A stretch of 64,000 bases of DNA. It comes from Tridacna crocea (lineage: Eukaryota; Mollusca; Bivalvia; Cardiida; Cardiidae). A program made the position numbers and the translations under genes. The stretch lies in NCBI GenBank assembly GCA_943736015.1, contig OX031061.1, forward strand, positions 17,679,290 through 17,743,289. Direction: 5' to 3'. The notes under the pieces are model-generated. The model saw nothing but the letters and a program-made list of their open reading frames with translations, had not been told where the DNA came from and did no database searches. The first letter of the stretch is position 1. The number at the start of each line of letters is the position of its first letter. Shown here piece after piece: positions 32,201 to 35,200 of this stretch.

Positions 32201-35200
32201 CACGAAACAGAAAAATGCATAAAAACGCAAAATGTCTTTTAGGATTAGTCTGCGTTGACTGCCCAGGCTGATCGGAAATGACACCCAACGCATCTCAAAG
32301 TTCCCCTTCTCACATGTTGCAGTCATATACTGCAGCAAAGAGATAAATTAAGCTTTATTTTGCCAGACCATAGCTCAAGTGTTAGGGGAACATAGGTGTT
32401 GTCAGTTAAGACTCAATGTGAAACAAGAGAAGATAAAATAGAACAAATTCAGTCTGTACATCAAGCGTCAAACAGAGTTCAAGGTAAAGTGAAGTTGAGT
32501 ATAGTGCCCATCAGATCTCCAGAGTGCAGCAAAAACCTGTGTACATACCTTGATGTATAGAATGGGAATAGTTTGTTTGGATTTACTGTAATGACGTGCA
32601 ACCCTATATAAATTCTCAGGTACGAATTCCAGAACAAGATTGAGGAACACTTCATCCTTCTGAAATTTTCATAAAACAAAAATCAACTAACACAATAACA
32701 CACCTATAAAACAGGGTCTCACCAATACATTAATTGACCTCTGTATTGCCAGAAATTAGATTGGACGACAAAAAACAACTGCTTCAGGGCTTGTCATGTC
32801 CAAAAATGGCAAGCTTGTTTCACAGCTCCAGATAGAGGGAGTGATTGTCATTTAAAAATTGAAAATATTAATTATTCTCAACCAAACCTTATCACTTTAC
32901 CCCATAAGGCATTTCTATGGTATCTCTAATTAACCCTAAATAACAGCTAGGATGAAACCATTTTTTATGTGTATGTGACACCTTTTGAAAGCATAAAAAA
33001 CATTGTGACAAAAGGTGAAATTGCTCGTCATGAGCAATTTCACCTTTTGCTACAATGTTTACCAAAGGCTCCTAAAAGCAATGTGTAGAAATGAGTATCT
33101 ATAGAGTAAAGATTTATATATTGTGGTGCTCATTAGAATCGTCTCATTGAAACGATTCTAATGAGTACCCACAACATAAGGTTTGGTGGAGAAATAATGG
33201 ATTGAAAACTGTTTTCAAGAGCCATTTTCCTGTAGGGTCTTCAAACCAGTGTTAGTGTTTTGTTTGGAAAAAGGTTATTTTAACTTCTGATGCAGAGACA
33301 AAGCTGCAAACACTGATAAAAATTGAGTCAGTAATTGACAGAGCACTCCAAACCAATATAAATACCTAGAGCACAAAACACAGTGCCCAAATTCTTAGCC
33401 ACTTTCGAAGCAGGTTTTCTATCACCAGAAAGCTGTGAGACCCTGTTGATTGTTCTTCTTTATATAGTCATACCTTAATGAAGATCATTGGTATGGTTTG
33501 TTTGGCTTTACTATAGTGTCTTGCAACTCTGTACACTGTTTCGGGAACATACTCTAACACCAGGTTCAGAAATACTTCATCTTTCTATAAAAACAAGTCA
33601 GCAACAGGCAACAGAGTAAAACTTACAATTGAATATTTCATAACTCTACAGGAAGACAGACGAAGGTAAGAGTGTTTCAAATGCAATCATACTCAACACG
33701 TGGTAACTCATATAAATGGTCTGATATAGTCAATTCATAACAGTACCTACAACATGGGTTCCAATGAATCTATCACATTACAAATAAAAATGTCCACGTT
33801 TTTTTGACTTAGGTCACTTGGCACTTTTTGATATATTTTAAAGATTACTACTGGAATTCTCTCACTTCTAGTAGAAGATAGTCATTGGCGACATTGTTTT
33901 GCTGGCAAACCCAAAATGACTAACACTACTAACAAAACTTTTACCATCAGTGATTCAGCAATGTTAGCATTAGAAACTAAAGCAACTCCTTTTATACTGT
34001 TGCTACTAAAACACAAGCAACCCATGTGGGTGCTTACACTGAGCTACATGTGCTTGATTTCTAGTAAAATAAAAAAAAAAACAACAACATGCCTATGAGG
34101 TCCTCCTTTCATAGTTAACAACTTGTCCAAGTTAGAATTAAATATCTCCAATAATAGCTTATGCATATTTTTGAAATTCAGAAACCTTTTACCTGAATGA
34201 TTTAAGCTGTTAAGGTTCATAGTAAATATGACGGGTGAGACAAGCCAGCTCATATTTCGATAGAATAATTTTCCTAAGATAAAATTTAACAAAAGAGGAA
34301 TACTCTGACAAAAGGTGGTTTACTGCATCTGTTATACATGATACGAAGTAATTCATCACATGATAATGGTTCCATAAAATCAAGTTAACCATTTCCCAAA
34401 CGATAAATATTTGGACTAGACCAAATTGAAAGCATTTGCAGATGACAATTCAATTCAACTCTTGCTGAGAAGATGACTTCCGTCTATGTTAGGGTAGAAA
34501 ACATTGTGAAAAAAGGAGAAAATGCTGGTTACCAGCATTTTATATCCTTTTCTCACAATGTTTTCAAAAGGCCCTATTCCTGAACTGTAAAAAGCAAGGA
34601 CTGTTTGGTAGGGCTCCGTATCGGTCAGTTTGATCGATACGATATTTGTATCGATACAAAATGATCGATATTCGATATATCATATGATATTTCAATTTTC
34701 AATAAAAGAAAGAAAAAATGCAAAAATTGTGTTTGTTCTTTTTTCAGCATACCTGAAAAACAAAATACCGCAAATTTAACACTTCTAGATTGTATTGAAA
34801 TTTCATAATTATGTAGGCCTAAATTAATATGAATTCTAACTAGATCTACATTTACTACTCATTAAAAAGCTGAAAAGACAGTCTAAGAGGACTCTGATCG
34901 GACAATGTCAAGGAGACATTTTGTTGTGTCATGGGTTTCCGTGTTTTTTTTTTGCACCGAACAATTTTTCATGCGTGTTAATTTCTGGATAGGTATGTTC
35001 GCATGATTCGACATAGATTTCTCAATAAGGATTAGAACTAGCATCAAAACCTGTTATTTTACTCACGATAAACAGATAATGGCCTTTTTGTCCATGTTTT
35101 TTCTTACGCGAGGTCTCGCGTGTGATTAACATTTGTTATGCAAATTTCAAGTCTATAAAATGACTTACACAATAATTTACGCGAGTCGCAACACTGATTT

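Follow-up and report, generated by a model that had tools for sequence, protein, structure and literature searches.

GSK3 is usually viewed as one invariant catalytic core that is regulated from outside. The stretch of Tridacna crocea DNA analysed here (64,000 nt, called the window below) contains a GSK3 gene with two copies of the exon that encodes the kinase hinge, designated 4a and 4b. It raises the question of whether a single gene may give rise to two GSK3 isoforms with different hinges.

The gene and its two copies of exon 4

A complete GSK3 gene of nine coding exons was delineated on the minus strand, from 39492 down to 20069, by tblastn with human GSK3B combined with the reading of splice sites; its introns are of the GT-AG type (Table 1). 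RPRTTSFAE in exon 1 is the motif around the regulatory serine of GSK3. The protein with exon 4a (isoform A) and that with exon 4b (isoform B) are 422 amino acids (aa) each and have no internal stops, and their identities to human GSK3B are 78.3% and 77.3%, respectively, in 419 alignment columns. The human reference sequence was checked against PDB chains over residues 123-288. Isoform B gives a Pkinase match of 1.5e-65, and of the 57 PDB matches to exon 4b the top 48 carry the name GSK3, whereas the final three are weak matches to unrelated proteins. The full kinase domain, the signature residues and the N-terminal region of the regulatory serine place the product in GSK3, a CMGC protein kinase.

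Table 1. Positions, within the window, of the GSK3 coding exons and of features of the intron between exons 4a and 4b
Feature	Position	Strand	Remarks
GSK3 coding exon 1	39408..39492	-	RPRTTSFAE motif in translation; tblastn and splice reconstruction
GSK3 exon 2	37381..37571	-	glycine loop, VAIKK lysine
GSK3 exon 3	36235..36318	-	ends in phase 0
Exon 4a	33474..33584	-	111 nt, phase 0-0
Exon 4b	32549..32659	-	111 nt, phase 0-0; equivalents of human Y134F, T138N, V139L
GT-AG intron between 4a and 4b	32660..33473	-	814 nt
GSK3 exon 5	25982..26112	-	HRDIKPQN catalytic loop, CDFG
GSK3 exon 6	25442..25548	-	activation loop
GSK3 exon 7	23611..23804	-	tblastn and splice reading
GSK3 exon 8	22019..22205	-	tblastn and splice reading
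GSK3 exon 9 and stop codon	20069..20247	-	tblastn and splice reading
Inverted repeat, 5' arm (AACAGGGTCTCAC)	33435..33447	-	13 bp, perfect; 26 nt after 4a donor; weak candidate RNA stem
Inverted repeat, 3' arm	32710..32722	-	pairs with 33435..33447; 50 nt before 4b acceptor
Repeat-derived stretch in 4a-4b intron	32821..33111	.	union of self-blast matches; outside the exon system
Second repeat-derived stretch in 4a-4b intron	33117..33195	.	palindromic; self-blast

The original prediction, which was made from the same DNA, described two intact exons of 111 nt that share 30 of 37 residues and differ synonymously in 21 of the 30 shared codons. Both exons were found where it had placed them, with phase 0-0, GT-AG junctions and no stops, and a recount gave exactly the same two fractions. 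At the nucleotide level 77 of 111 positions are identical, and the 34 differences are distributed over the first, second and third codon positions as 5, 3 and 26. With a slash marking the junction, the 3' and 5' splice sites are TTTTTATAG/AA and AAG/GTATGA for 4a, and AAAATTTCAG/AA and AAG/GTATGT for 4b. When every GT in the interval from exon 3 to exon 5 (572 in all) was scored with a 5' splice-site matrix, the 4b donor ranked first and the 4a donor fifth.

Between exons 3 and 5 there are seven stretches composed of AG, 111 open nucleotides and GT. The best six of the seven have BLOSUM62 scores against 4a of 188 (4a itself), 164 (4b), -8, -20, -20 and -34. Only 4a and 4b are GSK3-like among these candidates, and chance resemblance is therefore excluded. 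No further copy of exon 4 was found among the 39 candidates on the gene strand and the 34 on the opposite strand in the whole window, where only 4a and 4b score positive. The two are thus neighbouring internal exons of equal length (111 and 111 nt) with a common frame and phase, no in-frame stop, GT-AG junctions and homologous products (164 versus the self score of 188, with -8 for the next candidate), as expected of tandem-duplicated mutually exclusive exons (MXEs); the phase, stop and splice-junction features are those set out in passages of PMC5740500.

The best explanation, to which we give a probability of about 0.72 on the basis of the sequence, is that exon 4 of an otherwise ordinary GSK3 gene was duplicated in tandem long ago, which produced two alternative exons that are probably used singly, giving two full-length GSK3 isoforms. 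Both 4a and 4b would be expressed, with one exon per transcript, and the two 422-aa isoforms would differ only in a 37-residue hinge segment. The exons would be mutually exclusive, since 74 tandem hinge residues, or none, would be expected to break the kinase fold.

Possible means of exclusive splicing

Several known ways of enforcing exclusivity do not apply to this pair. Inclusion of both exons yields an in-frame product of 459 aa rather than a frameshift subject to NMD, and skipping of both yields one of 385 aa, also in frame, so that exclusivity is not readable from the frame. The U2/U12 type of incompatibility does not apply either, as all four sites are ordinary GT-AG sites and no U12-type donor was seen by eye in comparison with the U12 consensus. 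The intervening intron is not short in its linear form (814 nt, or 439 nt without repeats), and it would become short only on folding.

Pairing of the docking/selector kind with the flanking introns was sought with RNAduplex, using the four splice-proximal regions of 120 nt against targets of 160 nt, and none was better than shuffles (six per region, with only the query region shuffled). The sole region to beat its shuffles was that after 4a, which pairs with the end of the spacer intron at -77.4 kcal/mol (best shuffles -57.5 to -67.6), and the core of this pairing is the 13-bp inverted repeat of Table 1. The 80-nt ends of the 4a-4b intron can pair perfectly over up to 13 nt, a length not reached in any of 5000 shuffles (best 12), and the corresponding maximum ranges from 5 to 7 nt in the other eight introns of the gene. 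With the intron folded alone, the pair probabilities of the stem are 0.86-1.0. With the repeats cut out, the fold of the intron has a z of -3.4, and 0 of 200 shuffles are as good; a z of -9.2 for the whole intron (20 shuffles) was set aside as being partly due to nested palindromic repeats. Once the stem is formed, about 53 nt would remain between the 4a donor and the 4b branch point, according to a hand count with the branch point guessed at TTGAT. Such a distance is near the steric-exclusion limit reported in other introns. By joining both ends of the spacer intron, the stem would hinder the 4a-4b splice.

From the 4b side nothing stands out. The 120 nt before 4b pair at -46.6, which is weaker than the best of the shuffles (-49.6 to -58.2), and the strong score of the stem therefore needs sequence out to 32833. 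The duplex of the 150-nt intron ends is also unexceptional, 63 of 1000 shuffles being as good. Since the pairing is unexceptional from the 4b side, it is doubtful that the stem is a regulatory device helping to exclude the 4a-4b splice.

The inverted repeat is, on the whole, probably the decayed terminal repeats of a DNA transposon or a product of chance, in which case any exclusion would be due to trans-acting factors. This account is restricted to the mechanism and does not conflict with two isoforms, for which trans-acting factors would likewise pick the exon if the stem has no part in it. In its favour, inverted-repeat elements are abundant in the window, the arms enclose two repeat-derived stretches, and 14 single-copy inverted 13-mer pairs, the stem included, are found 300-1200 nt apart in the window. 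In addition, of 1054 pairs with the same placement in the window, 20 attain 13 nt; most of the 20 are repeats, and four placements at three sites, again counting the stem itself, have single-copy arms. On the other hand, the arms of the stem occur nowhere else in the window, no target-site duplication is seen by eye beside them, and the 4a-4b intron is the only one among the nine of the gene with such end pairing.

Other features near the exons were also recorded. GCATG is absent within 300 nt from all four exon flanks, and other splice-regulator motifs within 300 nt of 4a and 4b appear unremarkable. The last 16 nt of exon 4b (32549-32564) could pair with the downstream intron at 32450-32465 (16 nt, 88% complementary, with 83 nt between).

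The window is rich in repeats. The first repeat-derived stretch of the 4a-4b intron has copies at 42544-42766, 24439-24661, 45031-45254 and 15460-15654, which are 78-91% identical by self-blast. There are very many copies of a palindromic hairpin repeat, whose 13-mer GAGAAAATGCTGG is present 38 times on the plus strand and the reverse complement CCAGCATTTTCTC 28 times in the 64 kb. In the intron between exons 3 and 4a, an element of about 1.17 kb (34608-35778) has inverted ends GTAGGGCTCCGTA and is bordered on both flanks, as judged by eye, by ACTGTTTGGT; these features suggest a DNA transposon that is flanked by a target-site duplication of about 10 bp and that apparently landed within an older repeat. 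At 53367-54157 a single-copy inverted pair about 790 nt apart, with a perfect match of 25 nt and further inner pairs, probably represents the ends of another DNA element. Two open frames on the plus strand lie outside the GSK3 gene. That at 57399-58289 (296 codons) contains QSDSKGQ-type repeats followed by a basic tail, and its sole Pfam match, TrAA12-like, is below the curated cut-off. The start of that at 52690-53145 (151 codons) resembles a conserved protein (LHSLMEVFSECDLSVQFNVLRWKYFLLNERDHLGHPIPELL); the frame runs into the hairpin repeat and has no Pfam match.

Age of the duplication and constraint on both copies

A comparison of the dN/dS type, as the original prediction had suggested, was made for the exon pair. 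By the Nei-Gojobori method, pS is 1.08 (saturated), whereas pN is 0.097 and dN 0.104. Since the synonymous sites are saturated while dN is only about 0.10, the duplication is evidently very old and both copies must have been constrained for most of their history, in agreement with what had been claimed. When 34 differences were introduced at random in 50,000 trials, a mean of 15.8 of the 37 residues was kept (maximum 24), no trial reached 30, and a stop appeared in 74%. For 21 of the 30 shared codons to differ under uniform mutation, the copies must be separated by no fewer than about 2 neutral substitutions per site, the probability being 0.0275 at 2.0 and 0.005 at 1.5 substitutions per site (400 runs each). 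Neutral rates are a few 1e-9 per site per year. With these rates, the age of the duplication would be on the order of hundreds of millions of years, which is a soft figure.

Full saturation, with the codon usage of the gene itself, predicts 16.5 differing codons against the 21 seen; 4a and 4b are therefore as different as possible while coding for a similar protein. This apparent excess might arise because gene conversion is avoided or because the exonic splicing signals of the two copies differ. In a search for relatives, the prokaryotic collection gave five loci, all in bacterial records, and the viral collection none.

A rival possibility is that 4b is a relic, having served as an alternative exon through most of its past and gone out of use recently in this species. 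This was addressed by simulating the free drift of one copy, with a pass defined as at least 30 identities and with stops counted separately. At none of four settings did a copy left unconstrained for half or all of the branch retain 30 identities in more than 2 of 600 runs. Drift confined to the end of the branch often passes: at 120 proposals, the share keeping 30 identities is 1.0 for drift in the last 5% and 0.28 for the last 10%. Drift over 20% also passes often at the shorter settings (0.92, 0.30 and 0.05 at 40, 60 and 80 proposals, respectively), where the third-position differences are too few, but at the longest setting, which is nearest the observed divergence, the rate is 0.0017 for 20% and 0 for 50% (600 runs each). 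None of the settings reached the observed 26 third-position differences, the highest mean being 24.6. Moreover, 4b has no stop or frameshift, both of its splice sites are intact and its donor scores best in the interval. A recent loss of use is thus compatible with the sequence if it is brief enough, but we consider it improbable.

It is also unlikely that both exons are used non-exclusively, with double-exon transcripts giving a lengthened or inactive, possibly dominant-negative, GSK3. The in-frame product mentioned above would allow this, and adjacent exons that resemble each other are in many cases not mutually exclusive, according to passages of PMC5740500. RNA pairing that brings splice elements together can aid splicing (passages of PMC7404189), so that the stem could even promote the joining of 4a to 4b. 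Against this, a duplicate hinge segment would not be expected to fit the kinase fold.

Mis-assembly of haplotypes can create exon-level duplications, but the tandem placement of two alleles of exon 4 is extremely improbable here, as the copies differ at about 31% of nucleotides (34/111) with synonymous saturation, far beyond allelic divergence, and their 200-nt intron flanks give no significant alignment (best E 0.28).

Residue changes in the hinge

The exon 4 segment corresponds to residues 123-159 of human GSK3B (37 residues). The location of the exon over the hinge and the edge of the ATP pocket, as originally proposed, is borne out by a MAFFT alignment, and three of the seven differences between 4a and 4b fall in the hinge. 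These had been correctly given as Tyr to Phe, Thr to Asn and Val to Leu, but their human numbers are Tyr134, Thr138 and Val139; the previously assigned 132, 136 and 137 are the numbers in the GSK3 protein of the window. The last third of the exon, toward the C-terminus, contains the other four differences (A/S, M/I, I/L and F/Y). At 134, 138 and 139, 4a has the human Y-T-V and 4b has F-N-L. Because its hinge equals that of human GSK3B at these positions, 4a would be the canonical form.

In a gapless MAFFT alignment, the equivalent hinge residues are Phe82, Asp86 and Leu87 in CDK2, and Leu110, Asn114 and Leu115 in JNK1. Each hinge change in 4b, as aligned, is thus a residue found at that site in CDK2 and/or JNK1, a likeness that refers to two chosen comparators rather than to a survey. 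The hinge alignment is anchored by the matching of CDK2 Glu81/Leu83 with GSK-3beta Asp133/Val135 in passages of PMC7751407, where a water-mediated contact of Thr138 is also credited with the selectivity of indirubin-3'-oxime for GSK-3beta over CDK2. Considering this role of Thr138 and the changes at Tyr134, Thr138 and Val139, altered nucleotide or inhibitor binding in the 4b isoform is plausible. The F-N-L hinge may mildly alter the contacts with ATP or inhibitors, and activity would be kept.

A more far-reaching version may be envisaged, in which a very old splicing switch, probably common to a large animal clade, toggles between the normal and a CDK/JNK-like F-N-L hinge. In one cell type GSK3 would then differ in its affinity for nucleotides or its sensitivity to inhibitors, and exclusivity may be helped by a stem that makes the spacer sub-minimal. 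We regard this version as speculative and rather unlikely to hold as a whole.

Comparison with known systems

Tandem-duplicated mutually exclusive exons are already known, kinases included, and on our best reading what would be new here is their occurrence in GSK3 and in the catalytically central hinge, the architecture being ordinary. The JNK genes (MAPK8/9/10) contain mutually exclusive homologous exons, 6a and 6b, within a CMGC kinase domain. They resemble the GSK3 pair in this respect, but lie in the C-lobe and concern substrate docking and not the ATP hinge. The tandem-duplicated exons of FYN (FynB/FynT) encode the beginning of the kinase domain, including the ATP site, according to passages of PMC9741552; FYN, however, is a tyrosine kinase, and its exon spans the SH2 linker and the kinase-domain start, not a CMGC hinge.

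Among bivalves, the duplicated exon 10 of oyster AOX is described in passages of PMC5589949 as the first molluscan case making a stress-adaptive variant. It likewise represents a tandem exon duplication with alternative use, but differs from the GSK3 pair in involving terminal exons with stop codons and an alternative 3' splice site, and in not being a kinase. The same source places this duplication in two oysters and reports its absence from four other molluscs. In Drosophila, the GSK3 gene shaggy shows alternative splicing regulated by time of day in LNd neurons (passages of PMC6025963), where alternative terminal exons change the C-terminus and not the hinge. Long-range intronic pairing is tied to mutually exclusive exons in Dscam, 14-3-3zeta and MRP (passages of PMC6071210). 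Systems of the Dscam type have one docking site and competing selectors, whereas in the GSK3 gene the lone pairing above shuffles joins the ends of the spacer intron and is seen from one side only.

No GSK3 with alternative hinge exons was found, at the level of titles and abstract openings, in the open full-text literature on GSK3 splicing, the GSK-3/CDK2 hinge, exon duplication and exclusive splicing, a scope that leaves aside subscription journals, preprints and database annotation. The string GSK3 has 0 occurrences in the main text of the two human surveys (PMC9741552 and PMC5740500).

Implications

The age implied by synonymous saturation leads to the prediction that 4b is present in distant relatives. 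The GSK3 hinge exon pair would constitute a natural experiment showing which residues are acceptable in the hinge of a functional GSK3, and it could yield isoforms that differ in inhibitor sensitivity.
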